From positions 4,402,001 to 4,466,000 of the forward strand of contig NZ_JARUBF010000001.1 of the NCBI RefSeq assembly GCF_029626025.1: a stretch of 64,000 bases of DNA, given 5' to 3'. Below the pieces are notes generated by a model. That model did not search any database and had not been told where the DNA came from. It saw only the letters and a list, made by a program, of their open reading frames with translations. The DNA is from Solwaraspora sp. WMMD406. GTDB taxonomy: Bacteria; Actinomycetota; Actinomycetes; Mycobacteriales; Micromonosporaceae. Shown here piece after piece: positions 51,737-61,927 of this stretch; positions within the stretch are counted from its first letter, which is position 1; every line of letters starts with the position of its first letter. Made by a program: the position numbers and the translations under genes.

Positions 51737-52675
51737 ATGTCCCTCGTCCACGACCTCGCCGCACGCGTCCGGGCGACCGCCGACGACCTGCCCGTCGGAC
51801 ACGTCGCGCTGGCTGTCGAGCGACTCCGGGCGGCCACCGAGTTGCTGATCTGGGTCCGCCAGGAGTCGAGCGATCCGATGGCGGTACCCCAGCTGACCAA
51901 CGCGACCGAACACGCCGAACAGGCCGGGCACGCCATCCGGGTGGCGCAACAGTCCGTCACCGACTACCTGGGGGCTATCGGAATGGGCGCGGCCGCCCCG
52001 GCCGGACCGGACGACACCTGGCGTACCGCGCTCCGTCCCGCCGAGCGCTCAGACCCCGCCGACCCCGCCCGGACCGGCGCGCCGGAGCTCGGCAACTGGT
52101 GGGCGGCCCGAGTGGCGGAACTGACCGACCGACCCGCCGGTCCACCCACCTCACCGGCGGCCGGTCCGCCCGAGTCACCGGCCGCCACCGACACGACGGA
52201 ACTCCTGCGACAGGTCGCCCACGCGGTCCGCGCGCAGGACCGGGCCACCTTGCACCGCGACCTCGCCGCGGCGGCGACCCCGACCGGCCTCAACCTCGCC
52301 GCGGTGACCCCGCCGGTGCTGCACCGGCTCGCCGGTGACCTCCTCGACCACGAACCCCGCCCCGAAGATCTCCGGCGGTTGGCCACGGCGGCCGGACGGC
52401 CGGTCCGCGAGCTGCTGCCCGGGATGCCGGAATCGGTGTTGGACACGCTGCTCGCCCGGATCTGTCGGGTGCCGCCCGAGCACCGCCGCGACCGGGACAC
52501 CGCGCAGGCGGGCCACGACCGACGCACCGACCCCGACGAGGACGTCCCACCGCATCCGGCCGACGCCGCCGTCGCCGGCGCCGTCCTCACCGGAGTGCTG
52601 CTGCGGCTCCTCGACCGTGAGCCGCAGACCCTCCGTGCCGACCAGCCGCAACCGGTCCGGGGCCGGGATGCCTGA
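51737..52675 (+). CDS. Helical protein of the FtsK-like operon
   Basis: A 312-residue protein with no family I recognise. The first ~85 residues form a helical hairpin (LVHDLAARVRATADDLPVGH; TNATEHAEQAGHAIRVAQQS), like that of the preceding small protein. A Pro/Ala-rich linker follows (~90-150) and then a mostly helical C-terminal part (TELLRQVAHAVRAQDRATL, VAGAVLTGVLLRLLDREP). No membrane segment or catalytic motif. It overlaps the ATPase gene by eight bases, so translation is coupled. It may be an adaptor or substrate of the ATPase. Confidence 0.8.
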   Translation: MSLVHDLAARVRATADDLPVGHVALAVERLRAATELLIWVRQESSDPMAVPQLTNATEHAEQAGHAIRVAQQSVTDYLGAIGMGAAAPAGPDDTWRTALRPAERSDPADPARTGAPELGNWWAARVAELTDRPAGPPTSPAAGPPESPAATDTTELLRQVAHAVRAQDRATLHRDLAAAATPTGLNLAAVTPPVLHRLAGDLLDHEPRPEDLRRLATAAGRPVRELLPGMPESVLDTLLARICRVPPEHRRDRDTAQAGHDRRTDPDEDVPPHPADAAVAGAVLTGVLLRLLDREPQTLRADQPQPVRGRDA

Positions 52676-55349
52676 CGCGCGGACCGAGTTGGTGCTCGCC
52701 GTACGCCGGGCCCTCGGGCACGCCCGAGCCGCCGCACAGCACCGGCTCGAGACCATCGAGGAAGAACTGGCCGCCGCCGAGCAGCATCTGAAACGGGTTC
52801 GCCGGGCCGCCGAGCAGGTACCGCAGCGGGCCGGCGCGCACCGCGACCAGCGGCTCGCCACCCTCACCGAGCGGTACCAGCAACGGATCGCGCAGGTCGC
52901 CGGAGAGGCGGGCGCGGCAGCGACCGCCGTGGCACCCGGCGCCGCCATGGCCGGCTGGCCAGACTGGCGACCGACCCCGGCCGGGCGGACCGAAGCCCCG
53001 GGAATGGCCCGGATCGGTTGCACCGGAGTGACCGGGTCACCCACCGTCCCCGCGTTGGTGCCGCTGCTCGACGACGGCCACGTCGCGCTCGACGGCGACG
53101 ACCGGATCGGCTGCGACGCCGTCGTCGCCACCCTGCTGCTGCGGGCCCTCGGCCGCGCCGTGCCAGGGGCGGTGCGGCTGACCGGTTACGACCCGGAGCA
53201 ACTCGGCGGCGGACTCGCCGGCTTCGCCCCGCTGGCCGGCCCGCGGCTGCTGACCTTCGTCGGGCCGGGAGGCCTCGGCCGACACCTCGACGACCTGGTC
53301 GACGACATCCGCCGGATCAACGAGACGGTACTCGCCGGCGAGTACCGTTCGCTGCGGGAACTGGCGGCCAGCACCGGCCGTCGTCCGGAACCGTGGCGGA
53401 TCGCCGTACTGCTGGGTAGCCCCGGGGAGGAACTGTCCCGGCACGAACGCGCCCAACTCGACCGGATCACCCGGGCCGGCGCGGCGTGCGGCGTACACCT
53501 GGTCGTGCGCGGTGTCGAGCTGCGGGCAGGACCGACGGTGACCACCGTGTCGGTCTCCGCCGGCACCGCACGGGTCAGCGGATATCCCGCACTGCCGGTA
53601 CGGCTGGACCCGCCGCCTCCGGCGGAGCTGATCACCCGTACCTGCCGGGACATCGCCGGCACCATCTCGGCCGGACCGGTTCCGGCCGTCTTCGGCGACC
53701 TGCTGCCGCAGCGGGAGTGGACCGAGGACGCCACCGGCGGGCTCACCGCTCCGGTCGGCGACAGCCCGCAGGGCCGGCCGGTCGCGGTGACCCTGAGCGA
53801 CTACCCGCCGCACGCCCTCATCGGCGGCCCGTCCGGTACCGGCAAGACCAACCTGATCTACGCCTGGATCGGCGCGCTCGCCGCCCGCTACTCCCCCACC
53901 GAGCTGGAGTTCTATCTGCTGGACTTCAAGGAGGGCGTGTCGTTCGCCCGGTTCGCCCCCGGTCGACGGGACCCGAGCTTCCTGCCGCATGTCCGGCTGG
54001 TCGGCGTCAACGTCAACACCGACCGGGAGTTCGGACTGGCGCTCCTGCACTTCCTCGGGGCCGAACTACGGCGCCGCGCCGACGCCGCAAAGCGTCACGA
54101 AGTGACCAAGCTCGCCGAACTCCGCGCGGAGGATCCACAGGGCCGCTGGCCACGGATCGTCGCGGTGATCGACGAGTTCCAGGTCCTGCTCGCCGGAAAC
54201 GACGCTCTCGCCAGCGAAGCCGCCACCCTGCTGGAGGACCTGGCCCGACGCGGACGATCCCAGGGCATCCATCTGATCCTCGCCTCACAGGACGTCTCCG
54301 GCATCCAGGCGTTGTGGGGCCGCACCGCCCTGATCGCGCAGTTCGCGCTGCGGATCGCGCTGCCCAAGGCACGCCGGATCCTGCCGGAGACCAACAACGC
54401 GGCCGACGGACTGCCCCGCCACCACGCCGTGGTCAACGCCGAATCCGGCGCGATCGAAGCCAACCGGGTGGTCCGGATCCCGGCCGCCAGCGACCGCGAC
54501 ACCTGGCACGAGCTGCAGCACCGACTCTGGCGACGACGTCCGGAAGGGCTCTCCCCGCCCCGGCTGTTCGACGGTGACGCCGTACCACGGCTCACCGAAG
54601 CCCCCGACTACCTGGCGCTGGCCGGCACCGACGGCGGACCGCGCGAGCCGGTCGCGCTGCTCGGCGAGACGATCGACGTACGGGCGGGATCGGCCCGGCT
54701 CGCCCTGTCCCGGTCGCCCGGACGCAACCTGGCGGTGCTCGGCACCCGGGCCGACGAGGCCTGCGCCCTGCTCGACTCGGCCGCCCGTTCACTGGTCCGG
54801 CAGTACCCGGCCGGCACCGCCCGATTCGATCTGGCCTGCCTGGATCGTGACGCCGAGGCGGCCGCCCGGGACCTGCACGCGGCCCTGCCCGCCGGGACCG
54901 GTCTGTACGACCTCGACACCCTGCCCGGACTGTTGGCCGACACCGGGGACCGGCTCGCTGCGGACGACCCGGGCAGGCCGGCACGCCCGCACTTCCTGGT
55001 GCTATACGCGGTGGACGCGGCGGCGACCCGGCTCACGGCGAAGTTCGACGGACGCAGCGGGCTGGACCGGCTGCGTCGGATCCTGCACATCGGCCCGGAA
55101 CGGCACACGCACGTGCTCGGCTGGTGGCGCGGCGTCGCCCGGATGCGCGACGACCTCGGCGGGGTGGGTTCCCGCACCGACCAGATCGGCGCCTGGGTGG
55201 CGTTGGATGTCCAAGGCACCGAGCTCGGTCCGCCGCTGTACCCCCGGGCCGGCGGCCCCGCCTGGTATCCCCGGCCATGGCGCGCGTTGTTCTTCGACCG
55301 GACCGTGCACCGCAACGCGGAAGTCATCATCCCCTACGGACCGTCCTGA
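52668..55349 (+). CDS. FtsK/SpoIIIE (HerA)-family ATPase, EccC-like plan
   Basis: An 893-residue protein. A coiled coil (~10-95) is followed by what looks like three ATPase-type modules: a degenerate first (ALDGDDRIGCDAVVATLLL, ~130-330), an intact middle module with Walker A GGPSGTGKTN (Lys393) and Walker B IVAVIDEFQV (Asp502-Glu503) plus SQDVSGIQALWGRTALIAQF, and a degenerate third (RNLAVLGTRADEACALLDSA, ~680-890). No transmembrane helix is seen, unlike FtsK. Three modules with one active resembles EccC of type VII secretion, but EccB, EccD and MycP are absent nearby. DNA or protein translocation are both possible. Confidence 0.88.
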   Translation: MPDARTELVLAVRRALGHARAAAQHRLETIEEELAAAEQHLKRVRRAAEQVPQRAGAHRDQRLATLTERYQQRIAQVAGEAGAAATAVAPGAAMAGWPDWRPTPAGRTEAPGMARIGCTGVTGSPTVPALVPLLDDGHVALDGDDRIGCDAVVATLLLRALGRAVPGAVRLTGYDPEQLGGGLAGFAPLAGPRLLTFVGPGGLGRHLDDLVDDIRRINETVLAGEYRSLRELAASTGRRPEPWRIAVLLGSPGEELSRHERAQLDRITRAGAACGVHLVVRGVELRAGPTVTTVSVSAGTARVSGYPALPVRLDPPPPAELITRTCRDIAGTISAGPVPAVFGDLLPQREWTEDATGGLTAPVGDSPQGRPVAVTLSDYPPHALIGGPSGTGKTNLIYAWIGALAARYSPTELEFYLLDFKEGVSFARFAPGRRDPSFLPHVRLVGVNVNTDREFGLALLHFLGAELRRRADAAKRHEVTKLAELRAEDPQGRWPRIVAVIDEFQVLLAGNDALASEAATLLEDLARRGRSQGIHLILASQDVSGIQALWGRTALIAQFALRIALPKARRILPETNNAADGLPRHHAVVNAESGAIEANRVVRIPAASDRDTWHELQHRLWRRRPEGLSPPRLFDGDAVPRLTEAPDYLALAGTDGGPREPVALLGETIDVRAGSARLALSRSPGRNLAVLGTRADEACALLDSAARSLVRQYPAGTARFDLACLDRDAEAAARDLHAALPAGTGLYDLDTLPGLLADTGDRLAADDPGRPARPHFLVLYAVDAAATRLTAKFDGRSGLDRLRRILHIGPERHTHVLGWWRGVARMRDDLGGVGSRTDQIGAWVALDVQGTELGPPLYPRAGGPAWYPRPWRALFFDRTVHRNAEVIIPYGPS

Positions 55350-56008
55350 TGTCGGGGTCCTATCCGGCGTTGATGCGCCGCTTGGCGGAGCTCGCGGCGG
55401 GCCTGCAGGCCCGCCGCGACGAGGCGCAACAGTGGTACGCCGACCGGTTCGCCGCCGCTGAGGCGGCGGTGGCCGAGGTGGAGGCGGAGCTGGCCACGCT
55501 GCGGCGGCTCCACGCGGCGGCGAGCAAGGAAGCCGAGGACGTGGATCGGGAGGCGGCCGCGATCTGGGCCGAGGCGAGTCACCGGTTCGGTTCGGCGGCC
55601 AGCCGGTTCGTCGGCCCGCCGGTGCCGCCGCCCGGCTCCGGTGTACCGGACCACGAGCCGGAGCACTGGCTCACCGCCGCCCGGCAGGTGTTGGGTCGTA
55701 CGGCCGAAGCCGGCCCGCTGTCCTCGTCCGGCTACCCGGTACTGGCGTTGTTCGGCGTCCTCGGCGCGGCCGCCGCGTGGGGCCTGGCCACCGCCGGCCG
55801 GATGGCCGGAGAACGGTACGGCGGCGACCTCGCGGTCGGGATGCCGGTGATCGCGCTGGTGGTCACCCTGCTCGGCCCGTTCGTCGGGCTGGGGCCGGCC
55901 AAGTTGCTGGCCGACCGCCGCCACGCCGTACTCGACGCGCGCACCGGCGCGATCGTCGTGGCGGCCGGCCTGCTCACCACCACGATCCTGCTGGTCCTGC
56001 TGCGGTGA
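55349..56008 (+). CDS. Coiled-coil membrane protein, last gene of the FtsK-like operon
   Basis: A 219-residue protein with an N-terminal coiled coil (~20-90, for example AEAAVAEVEAELATLRRLHA) and three hydrophobic helices towards the C-terminus (YPVLALFGVLGAAAAWGLA, MPVIALVVTLLGPFVGLG, IVVAAGLLTTTILLVLL). The ATG overlaps the ATPase stop (TGATG). It is the only membrane protein of the unit and probably anchors the soluble ATPase to the membrane through coiled-coil contact. No named family recognised. Confidence 0.83.
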   Translation: MSGSYPALMRRLAELAAGLQARRDEAQQWYADRFAAAEAAVAEVEAELATLRRLHAAASKEAEDVDREAAAIWAEASHRFGSAASRFVGPPVPPPGSGVPDHEPEHWLTAARQVLGRTAEAGPLSSSGYPVLALFGVLGAAAAWGLATAGRMAGERYGGDLAVGMPVIALVVTLLGPFVGLGPAKLLADRRHAVLDARTGAIVVAAGLLTTTILLVLLR

Positions 56009-56086: not shown

Positions 56087-57397
56087 TCACCCGACGTCGG
56101 GGACCACGACCGCCTCTCGGAGCAGCCGCCGGGCGAGGACCAGCCGATCGTCGTCGGTGTCCAGGCCGGGCAGATCGCCGACGCGGATCCGGTCCGTTTC
56201 GAGCGCCGCGCGCAGGGCCAGCGCGCACTGGCCGGGGAAGCTGACCGTCCGGTCGAAGATCCGCAGTGCCACCCGGCCGTCCGGCTCGGGTACGAGTCGC
56301 CATCGCAGGCCGTCCCGCCGGCGGAGCGTGTCGTCGACGGTCAGGACGGCGATCCGCTCGGCCTGGGCGAGTGGCCGAAGCGGTGCGGGACGCGTCGCCG
56401 CCCAGCTCCGCTGCCGCAACCGGTCGGCGACCTCGGCTGGACTGACCGTCGTCAACCAGTCCCGCAGTGCGTCGACGGCCTCGGTCAGTTCGGGCTCCAG
56501 TTGACCGGTGTCGGCGACGTCCAGGCCCAGTGGCAGCGTCGCCCGCAGCCGGCGGTCGTCGACCGCCAGGTCCAGGAGCGTCTCCACCACCGAATAGCGG
56601 GTCAGCGCCCGTACGCCGACGGTCAGGTGGATGGAACTCTCCTGCTGGGCGGCGGCGCTGTGCAGCCAGCCTCGGGGCAGGTACAGCGCGTCGCCGGGTT
56701 CCAGCACCACGTCCACCGCCGGCTCGCCGTCGGCCCGGCAGGCGACCTCGTCGGCCCGCCCCGACCAGGTGTGCCGGGGCAGCGGATCGACCAGCACCGG
56801 TTCGTGAATTCGCCAGTGCTTGCGGCCGGCGACCTGGAGGACGAACACGTCGTGGGTGTCGTAGTGGGTCGCGAAGCCCTGGTTGCCGGCCGGGGTCAGG
56901 TAGGCGTTGACCTGCAGCGGCTGGCCGAGCATGCCGCCCAGTTCCCCGGCGAAGTCGATGATCGGCGGCCAGATCCGGTGCAGACCCTGCAGCACCAGAG
57001 TGGCGCCGTCGGCGTACTGCGCCAGCAACCGCTCATCGAGAACCTGGTCGGCGATCTCCGCGCCGGCGCCACCGCTGCCGGTGTACGCCGACTCCGGTAC
57101 GAGCGTCCCCTCCCGCGCCACCCGCAGGAAGGGGACGCGGAGCCCACGTCGGCTGAGTAGCTCGTCGGCGGCGTCGGAGTCCAGCAGGTCGGTGAAGCCC
57201 GCCGGACCGTCGAGGTCGGCTGCGCGCGACACCAGCGGTGCCCGTCCCCAGTAGGCGGTGGCGAACTTCGCGGGCTCGATTCCGACGCACCTCGCCAGCG
57301 CCGGACGGTTCCGCCCGCCCGGCGCCGGGGTGGTCACCGTCGATGGCGGTGCGGTCATGTCCGTCGACGTGGTGCCCGTCGCCGTCGCGGCTGTCAA
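56087..57397 (-). CDS. ROX-type JmjC/cupin 2-oxoglutarate oxygenase
   Basis: A 436-residue Fe(II)/2-oxoglutarate-dependent enzyme of the ribosomal-oxygenase type (YcfD/MINA53/NO66 group). Iron ligands are His178 and Asp180 (FATHYDTHDVFVLQVAG) and the distal His246 (LYLPRGWLHSA), with Lys193 of GRKHWRIHEP positioned for 2-oxoglutarate; a helical dimerisation and winged-helix-like C-terminus follow. It overlaps the repeat-peptide gene by TTGA, implying coupling. The TTG at 57397 is assumed; ATG at 57358 is an alternative and neither has a ribosome binding site. The likely target is the repeat peptide. Confidence 0.88.
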   Translation of the reverse strand: MTAATATGTTSTDMTAPPSTVTTPAPGGRNRPALARCVGIEPAKFATAYWGRAPLVSRAADLDGPAGFTDLLDSDAADELLSRRGLRVPFLRVAREGTLVPESAYTGSGGAGAEIADQVLDERLLAQYADGATLVLQGLHRIWPPIIDFAGELGGMLGQPLQVNAYLTPAGNQGFATHYDTHDVFVLQVAGRKHWRIHEPVLVDPLPRHTWSGRADEVACRADGEPAVDVVLEPGDALYLPRGWLHSAAAQQESSIHLTVGVRALTRYSVVETLLDLAVDDRRLRATLPLGLDVADTGQLEPELTEAVDALRDWLTTVSPAEVADRLRQRSWAATRPAPLRPLAQAERIAVLTVDDTLRRRDGLRWRLVPEPDGRVALRIFDRTVSFPGQCALALRAALETDRIRVGDLPGLDTDDDRLVLARRLLREAVVVPDVG

Positions 57398-57672
57398 CGC
57401 TTGTTGGCGCCGCCGTCGGCACCACCGTCGCGGCCCGCCGGGTTGGCCCCACCATCGGCCGGACCCTCCTGGGACTTCGGACCCGCGCCGCCGTCGGCAC
57501 CACCGTCGCGGCCCGCCGGGTTGGCCCCACCATCGGCCGGACCCTCCTGGGACTTCGGACCCGCGCCGCCGTCGGCACCACCGTCATGGCCCGCCGGGTT
57601 GGCCCCACCATCGGCCGGACCATGGCCGGCGGCGGTACCGGTGCTGCGGATGTCGTCGTCGTCGAGTTTCAT
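57394..57672 (-). CDS. Tandem-repeat peptide, candidate RiPP precursor
   Basis: A 92-residue peptide: a leader of ~17 residues (MKLDDDDIRSTGTAAGH) and three tandem repeats of a 26-residue Gly/Asp/Ala-rich unit, the last shortened to end ANKR. The only internal variation is at the residue after NPAG, which is His in the first repeat and Arg in the other two. AGGGGGC precedes the ATG. The gene is co-directional with and overlaps the JmjC oxygenase gene. The repeats, an acidic leader and an adjacent modifying enzyme are the usual marks of a multi-core ribosomal peptide. No named family recognised. Confidence 0.75.
   Translation of the reverse strand: MKLDDDDIRSTGTAAGHGPADGGANPAGHDGGADGGAGPKSQEGPADGGANPAGRDGGADGGAGPKSQEGPADGGANPAGRDGGADGGANKR
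57411..57621 (-). repeat. 78-bp coding tandem repeat, 2.7 copies
   Basis: Copies begin at 57411, 57489 and 57567; the spacing of 78 is a multiple of three. The copies are identical except for two adjacent-codon bases that change Arg to His in the copy nearest the leader. Expansion is therefore recent or under conversion. Confidence 0.95.
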
Positions 57673-57919
57673 GCTGCCCCCTGCGGTTGTTCGACGCCCG
57701 TCGTACGCGACGGGGCGATCGTGCCCGCAGTTCCTACCCGGGCCGGCCGGCCACTAACCTCGCGGACGTCACGAACCAACGGGATGCCGGAGCATCCGGA
57801 TATCGCCCGCACCGGGTTATGGCGCCCGCCGCAGGTAACGGCTACCCCGTGGCTACGAGACCGGTACGGACCGGGTGCGTACCGGTCGAGCGGAGGCGCG
57901 GTCCGCTGCGGAGAACGGC

Positions 57920-58942
57920 TCACCGGTCCCGGTACGGGGCGCAGCTGTCGCGGACCACGAGCTCGGTCGCCAGTTCGACCCGTGGGGTGTCCAACGGCTC
58001 GCCCTGGGCCAGCCGCAACACGGTACGCGCGGCCAGCAGGCCCATCTCGGCGAGTGGTTGGCGGACCGTGGTCAACGGCGGCGAGGACCACCGTACCTCG
58101 GGTAGGTCGTCGAACCCCACCACGCTCACGTCGTCGGGAACCCGCAGCCCGCGCTGGCGCAACGCCTCGTACGCGCCGAGGGCCATCTGATCGCTGGAGG
58201 CGAAGATCGCGCTGGGCCGTTCGTCGAGGTCGAGCAGGGCGTTGGCCCCCTCGAAGCCGGATTCGTGGTAGAAGTCGCCGGGCACGATGTAGTCCGGACG
58301 CAACGGGATGTCGGCGGCCTCCAGCGCCGCGCGGTAGCCGTCGAGCCGGGCCCGGCTGCACAGCAGTCGCGGCGGGCCGGCGATGAACCCGATCCGGCGA
58401 TGCCCCAGCGAGATGAGATGCTCGGTGGCGCGCAGCCCGCCGGCCCAGTTTGTCGCTCCGATGGTCGGGATGTCCAGGCTGGGTACGCCGGCCGGGTCGA
58501 CCAGCACCATCGGTACGTTGAGTCGTCGCAACTCGGTGTGCAGCGGCGGGGCCAGTTCGCTGGTCACCAGGATGACGCCGTCGGTGGCCCGGGTACGCAG
58601 GTTCTGCAGCCACTGCCGGGTCGAGGTGGAACGGCGGTGGATGGCCGAGACCACGGTGCCGACGCCCGCCGCGTGGGCGACGTCCTCCACCCCACGGATG
58701 ATCTCCACGGCCCACGGGCTGTCGAGGTCGTTGAAGACCAGGTCGATCAGGCTGGCTCCGGATCGTGATCGGGTCGCCCGTCGACGGTAGCCGTGCCGTC
58801 GGAGCAGTTCCTCGACCCGTTCTCGGGTCTGCGGCGCGACGTCGTTGCGACCGTTGAGTACGCGTGAGACCGTCGGTACGGAGACGCCCGCCTCCTGGGC
58901 GATCGCGGTGATCGTGATCCTGCGTCCTTCGTCGACCGTCAC
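57920..58942 (-). CDS. LacI-family transcriptional regulator
   Basis: A 340-residue repressor-type regulator: the helix-turn-helix ITAIAQEAGVSVPTVSRVLNG at residues ~10-31, then a periplasmic-binding-protein-like sugar domain (VDPAGVPSLDIPTIGATNWAG, SDQMALGAYEALRQRG, DVSVVGFDDLPEVRWSSPPLTTV). GTG start. It is divergent from the GH3 gene across 459 bases, and also sits upstream of the repeat peptide on the same strand (247-base gap). The most likely target is the GH3 gene, with an oligosaccharide or xyloside as inducer. Confidence 0.93.
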   Translation of the reverse strand: MTVDEGRRITITAIAQEAGVSVPTVSRVLNGRNDVAPQTRERVEELLRRHGYRRRATRSRSGASLIDLVFNDLDSPWAVEIIRGVEDVAHAAGVGTVVSAIHRRSTSTRQWLQNLRTRATDGVILVTSELAPPLHTELRRLNVPMVLVDPAGVPSLDIPTIGATNWAGGLRATEHLISLGHRRIGFIAGPPRLLCSRARLDGYRAALEAADIPLRPDYIVPGDFYHESGFEGANALLDLDERPSAIFASSDQMALGAYEALRQRGLRVPDDVSVVGFDDLPEVRWSSPPLTTVRQPLAEMGLLAARTVLRLAQGEPLDTPRVELATELVVRDSCAPYRDR

Positions 58943-59401: not shown

Positions 59402-61927
59402 GTGAGCAGCAAGGATGACGCCGTGGACGGCAGCCGAACCAGCACGGATCCGGCCGAGCACCCGGATGGTCACGCCGCCGCGACAGCGACGAGCAACGGC
59501 TCGGCGTACGCCGGCACCGGCGAACCGGTACCGGTCTGGCGAGACCGCACCATGCCGGTCGAAGAACGGGTCTTCGACCTCCTCGGCCAGATGTCGCTGA
59601 CCGAAAAGGTCGCCCAGCTGTACAGCTTCTGGATGGGGGCCAACGCGAGCGTCGACGACATGGCACCCCATCAGCACGATCTGGTCGACGACTCGGTCGA
59701 CTGGAGCGACCTGCTGCACACCGGACTCGGCCAGTTGACCCGGCCGTTCGGCACCGCGGCCGTGACACCGATCGAGGGCGCCCGGGCGCTGGCCCGGCTA
59801 CAGACCGAGATCGCCGCCGGCAACCGCTTCGGCATTCCGGCCCTGATCCACGAGGAATGCCTCACCGGGTTCATGACGTGGGGCGCCACCGTGTACCCCA
59901 CACCGCTGGCCTGGGGAGCGACCTTCGATCCGGAACTGGTCGAACGGATGGCCAACCGGATCGGTGCCGACATGCGGTCGGTCGGGGTGCACCAAGGGCT
60001 GGCCCCGGTGCTCGACGTCGCCCGCGACCCCCGCTGGGGCCGTACCGAGGAGACGATCGGCGAGGATCCGTACCTGGTCGCGACGATCGGTACGGCGTAC
60101 GTGCGCGGGCTGGAGTCCGCCGGCATCGTCGCGACCCTCAAACACTTCGCTGGATACTCGGCGTCGCGCGCCGGCCGCAACTTCGGCCCGGTCGCGGTCG
60201 GCCCGCGCGAGTTCGCCGACGTCCTGCTCCCGCCGTTCGAGATGGCGGTACGCGAGGGCGGCGCCCGTTCGGTGATGCACTCCTACGCCGAGATCGACGG
60301 GGTCCCGTCGGCGGCCGACGGCGGTCTGCTGACCGATCTGCTTCGTGGCCGGTGGGGGTTCACCGGCACCGTGGTCGCCGACTACTTCGGCGTGTCGTTC
60401 CTGGAGCTGCTGCACCGGGTGGCGGACGGCCCGAGCGAAGCGGCGGCTCTGGCCCTGACCGCGGGGGTCGACGTGGAACTGCCGGCGGTCCGGTGTTTCG
60501 GCACCCCGCTCGTCGCGGCGGTACGCAAGGGCACCGTGCCGGAATCGGTGGTCGACCGAGCCGTGACCCGGGTACTGCGGCAGAAGTGCGAACTCGGGCT
60601 GCTCGACCCTGACTGGGATCCCACGCCACCGATCCTGGCGTCACCGGCCCAGACGTCGGCGGACCGACCCGTCGACCGGACGGCGCTCGACGGTCCTGAC
60701 AATCGGAAGCTGGCGCGCCGGCTGGCGGAGGAATCGGTGGTCCTGCTGGCCAACGACGGGACTCTTCCGCTGCCCCCGGAGGCCCGCCTCGCGGTCGTCG
60801 GTCCGCTGGCCGACGACGTCACCGGGATGCTCGGTTGCTACACCTTCCCCAGCCACGTCGGGACCACGCCCGCCGGTGTGGATGACGACCTGGGCATCGG
60901 TACGGTCCTGGCCGGGCTCCGAGTCGAGTTGCCGCAGGCCGTGATCGAGCATGTCGCCACCGGCGGTGTCGATCTGCAGGACACCCCGAGCATCGTGGTG
61001 GCCGCCGACGCGGCGGCCCGGGCCGGTATCTGCGTCGCGGTCGTCGGCGACCGCGCCGGCCTGTTCGGCAACGGCACCTCGGGAGAAGGGTCCGACGCGG
61101 TCGACCTGGAGCTGCCCGGTCGCCAGGGGGAGCTGATCGAGGCGCTCGTCGCCACCGGCACCCCGGTGGTGCTGGTGTTGCTGACCGGGCGACCGTACGC
61201 GCTCGGCCGGTACGCCGACCGGCTCGCCGCGGTGGTCCAGGCGTTCTTTCCCGGCGCCGAAGGCGGCCGGGCCGTCGCCGGCGTCCTCGGCGGCCGGGTC
61301 TGCCCGTCCGGTCACCTGCCGATCGGGGTGCCTCGGACCGCCGGCGGACAACCGGCCGGCTACCTCAGCCCGCCGCTGGGACACCGTACCGAGGTCAGCA
61401 ACATCGATCCGACTCCGTTGTATCCGTTCGGGCACGGCCTGTCGTACACCACGTTCGAGTGGTCCGCGCCGCAGATCGACGGAATCGACGTGCCCGACCC
61501 GGATTCCGGCGGGGCGGATCACCCGGCGTCGTGGCTCGACACCCGGCCGACCGAAATCGGCACCGACGGCGCGGTCGACGTGTCCATCCGCGTCCGCAAC
61601 ACCGGCACGCGGGCCGGGACCGAGGTCGTACAGCTGTATCTGCACGACCCGGTGGCCCAGGTGACCCGGCCGGTCGCCCGACTGATCGGGTACGCGCGGG
61701 TGCCCCTGGAGCCGGGCCAGGAGCGCCGGGTCGACTTCACCGTTCCCGCCGACCTGGCCGCCTTCACCGGCCGGGAGGGCCGCCTCGTAGTGGAACCCGG
61801 AGACCTGCACCTACGGCTGGCCGCGTCCAGCGAACGGACCGTCCGCCAGGTGTCGATCCGACTGGTCGGCCCGTATCGGCAGGTTGATCACCGTCGACGC
61901 CTCACCTCACAGGTGACGGTACGGTGA
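59402..61927 (+). CDS. Glycoside hydrolase family 3 (beta-glucosidase/xylosidase type)
   Basis: An 841-residue cytoplasmic glycosidase. After a ~45-residue variable start, the GH3 N-domain contains LIHEECLTGF, GLAPVLDVARDPRWGRTEETIGEDPYLV, TLKHFAGYSA and the nucleophile Asp327 in GTVVADYFGVSF. The C-domain (~420-660) carries SVVLLANDGTLPLP and the Gly-rich GLFGNGTSGEGSD with the likely acid/base region, and a fibronectin III-like domain ends the protein (GTRAGTEVVQLYLHDP). No signal peptide, so it acts on imported oligosaccharides. GTG start with AGGAG upstream. Divergent LacI probably controls it. Confidence 0.94.
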   Translation: MSSKDDAVDGSRTSTDPAEHPDGHAAATATSNGSAYAGTGEPVPVWRDRTMPVEERVFDLLGQMSLTEKVAQLYSFWMGANASVDDMAPHQHDLVDDSVDWSDLLHTGLGQLTRPFGTAAVTPIEGARALARLQTEIAAGNRFGIPALIHEECLTGFMTWGATVYPTPLAWGATFDPELVERMANRIGADMRSVGVHQGLAPVLDVARDPRWGRTEETIGEDPYLVATIGTAYVRGLESAGIVATLKHFAGYSASRAGRNFGPVAVGPREFADVLLPPFEMAVREGGARSVMHSYAEIDGVPSAADGGLLTDLLRGRWGFTGTVVADYFGVSFLELLHRVADGPSEAAALALTAGVDVELPAVRCFGTPLVAAVRKGTVPESVVDRAVTRVLRQKCELGLLDPDWDPTPPILASPAQTSADRPVDRTALDGPDNRKLARRLAEESVVLLANDGTLPLPPEARLAVVGPLADDVTGMLGCYTFPSHVGTTPAGVDDDLGIGTVLAGLRVELPQAVIEHVATGGVDLQDTPSIVVAADAAARAGICVAVVGDRAGLFGNGTSGEGSDAVDLELPGRQGELIEALVATGTPVVLVLLTGRPYALGRYADRLAAVVQAFFPGAEGGRAVAGVLGGRVCPSGHLPIGVPRTAGGQPAGYLSPPLGHRTEVSNIDPTPLYPFGHGLSYTTFEWSAPQIDGIDVPDPDSGGADHPASWLDTRPTEIGTDGAVDVSIRVRNTGTRAGTEVVQLYLHDPVAQVTRPVARLIGYARVPLEPGQERRVDFTVPADLAAFTGREGRLVVEPGDLHLRLAASSERTVRQVSIRLVGPYRQVDHRRRLTSQVTVR

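Follow-up and report, generated by a model that had tools for sequence, protein, structure and literature searches.

In the 64,000 nucleotides of Solwaraspora sp. WMMD406 analysed here (the window; the host genome has 7.16 Mb in 3 contigs), a small gene for an Asp-rich repeat peptide adjoins the gene of a ROX-type JmjC oxygenase, and comparison with relatives indicates that both genes are conserved and coupled. We propose that they form a RiPP-like cassette in which the oxygenase hydroxylates C3 of several Asp residues of the peptide core to give a poly-(3-hydroxyaspartyl) product, a reading to which we assign a probability of a little under 60%. The cassette would comprise a short acidic leader, a repetitive and very hydrophilic Asp-rich core and a ROX-type JmjC 2OG/Fe(II) oxygenase dedicated to this peptide. 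Binding of the precursor would probably involve the leader and a winged-helix-like region at the C-terminus of the enzyme, and the enzyme would then hydroxylate the beta carbon of several core Asp residues; the resulting peptide could be a metal ligand, perhaps for Ca2+ or Fe3+. In the ancestral operon a Suc_Fer-like protein would also have taken part, probably as redox partner or in a later step, and would have been largely lost in the family of the window's host (Micromonosporaceae, hereafter the window's family).

The features of the cassette are collected in Table 1. The initial annotation had described a peptide of 92 residues with an acidic leader and three tandem units of 26 residues, which is correct except for the last unit: the units start at residues 18, 44 and 70, with a spacing of 26 residues, and the third extends over only 23 residues up to the C-terminus. 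Over the 20-residue unit core the single difference is the residue ahead of DGGADGGA (H, R and R in units 1-3), so that His/Arg is indeed the sole variable residue as first noticed, and in the DNA of the unit core the differences are confined to this codon and the last base. The stop codon TGA overlaps the TTG start of the JmjC gene as TTGA. This overlap, also pointed out earlier, holds in the window and is not general, because the distance between peptide stop and aligned JmjC start differs among relatives.

Table 1. Features of the peptide-oxygenase cassette, in positions of the window.
Feature	Position	Strand	Basis
Asp-rich repeat peptide, 92 aa, putative precursor	57394..57672, stop codon included	-	ATG start; dN/dS; co-occurrence with JmjC
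Leader motif MKLDDDDI	57649..57672	-	leader-type pattern in 168/183 relatives
Repeat unit 1, 26 aa, His before DGGAD	57544..57621	-	
Repeat unit 2, 26 aa, Arg before DGGAD	57466..57543	-	
Repeat unit 3, 23 aa to C-terminus, Arg before DGGAD	57397..57465	-	
Purine-rich AGGGGG ahead of peptide ATG, possible ribosome-binding site	57677..57682	-	by eye from start context
JmjC_2 (PF08007) ROX-like 2OG/Fe(II) oxygenase, 436 aa from TTG start	56087..57397	-	PF08007 2.6e-30
Promoter-like element GGTTAG-N14-GGGTA (window reads GGGTAG), SigB/SigF-family type	57735..57759	-	block conserved in window's family

The window peptide is under purifying selection, with dN/dS values of 0.027-0.157 in 21 pairs from 7 genomes of the same genus. 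These values, the co-occurrence with JmjC and the control with other ORFs of the same loci (both below) rule out a chance or non-coding frame, and the peptide is real, as had been supposed. A known peptide family was also ruled out among the sequences scanned, since the window peptide has no match in Pfam or NCBIfam, and neither have the peptides of relatives (four scanned against Pfam, five against NCBIfam). On the opposite strand (57401-57757, +) a Pro/Ser-rich open frame of 118 residues runs antisense to the peptide gene and is regarded as a side effect of the GC-rich repeats.

The coupling of the two genes was followed in 151 genomes, namely that of the window and those of 150 relatives. 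At a threshold of E <= 1e-20 the JmjC gene was found in 77 of them and was missing in 74. A search with the window peptide matched 47 genomes, every one of which also has JmjC (47/47), and none of the 74 JmjC-negative genomes. The 30 JmjC genomes without a peptide match are not plain counter-examples, because many of the loci inspected there have diverged Asp-rich peptides that escape a query with the window sequence. Eighty relatives belong to Micromonospora, Plantactinospora, Actinoplanes and similar genera; some are labelled Micromonosporaceae in the source records and the remainder we assigned to this family by genus.

Altogether 200 distinct JmjC loci were gathered, of which 193 have readable upstream DNA; at the other seven (L058, L065, L092, L101, L106, L216 and L233) it is cut off or consists of N. 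Ten distant paralogs (L147-L153, L220, L229 and L232) were set aside and 183 loci kept as the JmjC family. As upstream criterion we used an Asp-rich ORF ending between -500 and +300 bases from the aligned JmjC start with a score of at least 12, and such an ORF was present at 183/183 family loci against 13/314 control ORFs (other ORFs of the same loci), a count that is partly circular because the paralogs were removed after scores and identities had been inspected. With the paralogs included the figure is 184/193. Nine paralogs score below 12 and L148 scores 12.9. In identity (29-37%) and bit score (96-186) the ten overlap with the most distant loci kept in the family (32%, 141 bits), and in the tree all lie to the same side of a branch supported at only 66. 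Among the 183 loci the top ORF is doubtful in L184 and L221, and the frame is broken in L163. A conserved peptide frame beside homologous JmjC genes, whose absence had been named in advance as fatal to the proposal, is present at 183/193 readable loci.

The search of genomes for JmjC genes beside leader-bearing repeat ORFs, which had also been suggested, yielded multi-unit cores and an acidic leader pattern of the MxLxDDDI type in 168/183 family peptides; at least five precursors (L136, L137, L143, L183 and L185) are without an acidic leader. The arrangement that defines a RiPP locus, a small gene of leader and core beside a modification enzyme, is thus seen here, with the leader in 168/183 and the Asp-rich core in 183/193. 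On the tree two main clades are separated, one of 151 rows (support 97) with mostly DGGADGGA-type cores and one of 36 rows (support 90) with mostly DGTDGD- or DADAADADA-type cores. The enzyme occurs in 51/396 genomes drawn from the phylum (E <= 1e-30) and in 217/397 drawn from the order (E <= 1e-60). It is also found in 38 plasmid records, 36 of them from Streptomyces, with identities of 29-33% among the 20 listed.

Some loci depart from the common type. The paralog L147 (G063) has a small upstream ORF that ends 57 bases past the aligned JmjC start and has many His, Asp and Cys residues close to the C-terminus (HYDHDPSDPAHIGHDTDPTDCCDH), and it may represent a different type of peptide for a related enzyme. 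In L150 (G141), another paralog set aside, a Suc_Fer-like gene follows the JmjC gene and a small ORF ends in AADNDGNDG; this locus may belong to the JmjC family after all. In the upstream ORF of L042 the ordinary units are interrupted by a long stretch of inserted DRGADRGVERGADAGAD-type repeats, and several Micromonospora precursors have a short version of this insert.

The composition of the cores bears directly on the residue that is modified. It was counted in 180 cores (172 from automatic parsing and 8 delimited by hand, without L163, L184 and L221), of which at least ten still contain leader residues, so that the presence of His and Arg can only be inflated. Asp is absent from none of the 180, His from 54, Arg from 61, Asn from 95 and Pro from 9, and 12 cores have neither His nor Arg. 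The usual target of known JmjC hydroxylases is C3 of Asn, Asp, His or Arg (FIH on Asn/Asp, the ROX enzymes on His/Arg), and Asp is the parsimonious target because it is the only one of these four present in all cores. Presence alone does not single out Asp, since Gly and Ala, found in all 172 automatically parsed cores, are as universal. The cores are acidic, with a median net charge of -15 without His, and nearly devoid of hydrophobic, aromatic or Cys residues (median fraction 0.017). Asp residues follow one another most commonly at steps of 4, 9, 3, 2 or 8 residues, and the cores of the distant clade (DGTDGDATDGTDGD or DADAADADA, for example) have Asp, small residues and close spacing in common. 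We therefore favour C3 of Asp as the likely position of hydroxylation, several times per chain.

It counts against Asp as target that the solved structures closest to the enzyme belong to His or Arg hydroxylases, and the initial annotation had proposed hydroxylation of Arg or His, one per repeat. According to this alternative the JmjC enzyme would modify the His or Arg before DGGAD once in each unit. The residue at this site was read in 417 units from 129 loci, a count that is uninformative on Asp conservation because the unit pattern requires Asp, and is H in 217, Q in 110, R in 58, S in 11 and E in 9 units, and more rarely V (4), A (3), T (3), M (1) or N (1). His or Arg thus occupies 275/417 units, every unit at 57/129 loci and all three units of the window, as the alternative would have it, but Q takes its place in 110 units, 22/129 loci have neither residue at the site in any unit, and the 12/180 cores without both were found even though leader remnants inflate their presence. 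We regard this alternative as distinctly unlikely, and as a general target His/Arg is ruled out by the variable site and the cores without both. A similar picture emerges when 108 peptides from the window's family are aligned over their C-terminal 34 residues with no requirement for Asp: each of the three Asp of the last unit is kept in 108/108, as are the G, G and A of DGGAD, and the residue preceding DGGAD is H in 41, Q in 37, R in 20 and another in 10.

ROX-type JmjC oxygenases (NO66, MINA53, YcfD) act on ribosomal proteins, and the window enzyme is similar to them in its PF08007 domain, the HxD...H ligands, the GRK lysine and a NO66 profile match over nearly the whole length. A profile of 45 homologs with 403 positions, searched against solved structures, matched NO66 best (4.6e-42; profile positions 13-400, residues 38-446 of the 454 of the NO66 chain), followed by MINA53 (8.2e-33) and a cupin 4 family protein (4csw, 1.8e-19), and the L16 arginine hydroxylase YcfD was matched at 2.3e-14. 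The best solved relatives by sequence are therefore NO66, MINA53 and YcfD-type proteins, which agrees with the ROX-type assignment made at the outset. H178, D180 and H246, the Fe ligands of the HxD...H type, and K193 in GRK, which we take to be the 2OG-binding Lys, are invariant in the 45 aligned sequences, so that the iron ligands and, as far as an alignment can tell, the catalytic residues are intact, in keeping with the earlier description. An in-frame ATG at residue 14 offers an alternative start, and the frame matched no NCBIfam model. At the threshold applied, no natural fusion of peptide and JmjC was found among the 200 loci. In L142 (G062) the JmjC gene was matched as three overlapping pieces in different frames, which indicates a broken gene or an assembly error there.

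The resemblance to ROX enzymes also suggests another explanation, in which JmjC is an oxygenase of a ribosomal or other protein and the peptide, instead of being its substrate, is a partner that for instance buffers a metal or cofactor or regulates the enzyme. The window JmjC is the only PF08007 match in the host genome and is ROX-like, as expected of such an oxygenase, and Asp-rich strings could bind metal unmodified. The enzyme is nevertheless missing in 74/151 relatives (E <= 1e-20), which is odd for a ribosomal modification, if a weak argument, and the cores vary widely in length, unit number and sequence with the enzyme link steady, a behaviour more like that of a substrate than of a regulator. 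We find this explanation very unlikely, and the peptide is, judging from these patterns, in all probability the substrate of the JmjC enzyme.

ROX structures have a C-terminal winged-helix region, and the reach of the profile match into the C-terminal region suggests that it is kept in the JmjC family. RRE-like folds fused to PF08007 have been described in fish and algae, with closest bacterial homologs (about 30% identity) in RiPP-like contexts, in the available part of the report of Bregman et al. 2025 (PMC12710340). That report and the winged-helix region of the ROX enzymes together make it plausible that the C-terminal region of JmjC binds the precursor, and the five or more leaderless precursors weaken leader recognition as a rule. 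The fusions share the Pfam family of the window JmjC, and the section on them is silent on precursor family, operon, taxa and target residue (PMC12710340); the peptide-JmjC pair would give its remark on PF08007 and RRE a concrete bacterial context.

Outside the window's family a third gene lies directly 3' of the JmjC gene and encodes a Suc_Fer-like protein (PF06999; 3e-20 for the protein of L118), and among 22 loci measured, 7 have a 4-base overlap of the two frames. In a tblastn count over distinct loci with at least 700 bases downstream, the gene is present at 29/31 loci from other families of the order and 34/40 from other orders or classes (63/71 combined), against 2/110 loci of the window's family (L132 and L133, from one genus); it accompanies 1/10 paralogs (L150), and the window's genome has no PF06999 match. 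From this contrast the ancestral unit probably consisted of three genes, for a peptide, a hydroxylase and a redox protein, and the window probably represents a reduced form, the Suc_Fer-like gene having been largely lost in its family. In 66 aligned Suc_Fer-like proteins the motifs C..G.HD.CCA and WE.SH.GG.RFA are kept in at least 90%, and in our view they are reminiscent of the Cys/His Fe-S site in Apd1-type proteins from yeast. The search for a solved relative gave one match with an E value of 0.34, which was taken as none.

According to the initial annotation no protease, transporter or second modification gene adjoins the pair. This applies to the window, whereas a redox-type gene is usual outside its family. 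The annotated recurring neighbours are Suc_Fer-like, DUF72, DUF2267, zf-dskA_traR, PIG-L, Aminotran_4, LacI and FtsK-like genes; a protease or exporter is not among them, in an annotation that covers cluster representatives rather than all clusters and left one representative unmatched. That no such gene recurs beside the pair, unlike in many RiPP clusters, counts against the RiPP-like reading. An ATP-grasp ligase or PIMT-like methyltransferase was found neither in the six window genes (Pfam) nor among the annotated representatives of recurring clusters elsewhere, and the cassette is in this respect without the gene beside the precursor that marks graspetides, pamtides or imiditides.

The other genes around the cassette are of different character. 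An FtsK/EccC-like ATPase gene (FtsK_SpoIIIE 1.9e-20, below the EccC cut-offs) and, after it, the gene of a protein without confident family match lie in 52335-56008 (+) and converge on the JmjC gene, and the ATPase cluster lies downstream of JmjC in 73/133 loci. The FtsK/EccC-like and coiled-coil genes downstream were rejected as members of the system because they are convergent with JmjC. On the other side a LacI-type regulator (57920-58942, -) adjoins the peptide gene and is divergent to the gene of a GH3 protein (59402-61927, +) that scores above the NCBIfam cut-off for beta-xylosidase/alpha-L-arabinosidase, and these two look like an ordinary sugar-use pair.

Gly follows Asp in 1697/2562 cases, and Asp-Gly is prone to form aspartimide. 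The hydroxylation could thus be only the first step of a rearrangement to aspartimide, aminomalonate or a different residue, and the Suc_Fer-like protein, where present, would act later. Such a sequence of steps would be in line with the Suc_Fer-like gene adjoining JmjC in 63/71 loci outside the window's family, and with SmaO/SmaX, which turn Asp into aminomalonate in a graspetide cluster (as cited in the available text of PMC13097080). Against it, the residue after Asp is often Ala, Ser or Thr in the distant clade, the annotated recurring neighbours (not all clusters) include no PIMT-like methyltransferase or ATP-grasp ligase, and PF06999 is absent from the window's genome, so that the second step would have to be optional. 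We consider a rearrangement unlikely, and 3-hydroxyaspartate remains the residue that we expect in the product.

Hydroxylation of Asp in ribosomal peptides has precedents: PesHI, an MNIO enzyme, converts Asp to 3-hydroxyaspartate in a RiPP (PMC13060819), and so does SmaO (cited in PMC13097080), and in the available parts of these sources no Asp-rich repeat core is described for either. A JmjC-type hydroxylase with a ribosomal precursor peptide, whose role as substrate is putative in our case, is likewise known from the biphenomycin-type RiPP clusters, where the JmjC or cupin-like hydroxylases BipG, BpmG and PbsQ act on ornithine (PMC12707348, PMC12257519). As far as the accessible text of those reports goes, these clusters have a single core and MNIO, radical SAM, arginase and protease partners, whereas the core here is Asp-rich and of several units and none of those partner genes is adjacent in the window. 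From the known ROX oxygenases the present enzyme differs in being coupled to a repeat peptide gene (183/193 readable loci). An Asp-rich repeat precursor with a JmjC enzyme was not recognised in the literature searched, which comprised titles and the starts of abstracts and left subscription papers and supplements outside its scope. Overall, the comparison points to RiPP-like modification by a ROX-family enzyme and to a modified peptide of an uncharacterised type. Should the peptide prove to be the substrate, this would be a very common peptide-modification system without a name, with the enzyme in 217/397 genomes of the order, and one that is easy to assay because each precursor has many similar sites. 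If our reading is correct, ROX-type JmjC chemistry would be extended to a dedicated Asp-rich polymer and the ROX family tied to substrate recognition of the RiPP type.

The DxDG-type strings seen in the distant clade are reminiscent of calcium-binding loops, and siderophores use hydroxyaspartate to bind ferric iron. By analogy the hydroxylated product may bind a metal, a suggestion that we put forward tentatively. One may speculate further, with more doubt than confidence, that a phylum-wide operon of Actinomycetota for a precursor, a JmjC enzyme and a Suc_Fer-like Fe-S redox protein makes poly-3-hydroxyaspartyl metal-binding polymers with a role in stress or stationary phase, rather than antibiotics, and that the window's family has lost the redox gene and has the pair downstream of a SigB/SigF-type promoter.

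Ahead of the peptide start in the window's family stands a block GGTTAG...GGGTACC, about 60-90 bases away in most of the printed examples. The pattern GTT-N14-19-GGGTA occurs in 92/108 upstream regions of this family against 11/534 of other ORFs, 3/168 on the reverse strand and a mean of 1.3/168 in Markov resamplings, counts that are descriptive only because the pattern was formed after the block had been inspected and the loci are related. In the other groups it was found in 3/28 and 1/32 regions, and a relaxed pattern in 2/27 and 2/32 (reverse strand 0 and 1), and the block was rejected as a general feature. In the available text of the respective reports, the SigF consensus of Mycobacterium smegmatis is GTTT-N(14-19)-GGGTA (PMC4694148), to which the block is similar with GTTA replacing GTTT, and it also resembles SigB-family promoters of Streptomyces coelicolor such as SCO5555p, GTTAGA-N13-GGGTAC (PMC8346170). 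This likeness hints at expression of the cassette under stress or in stationary phase in the window's family.
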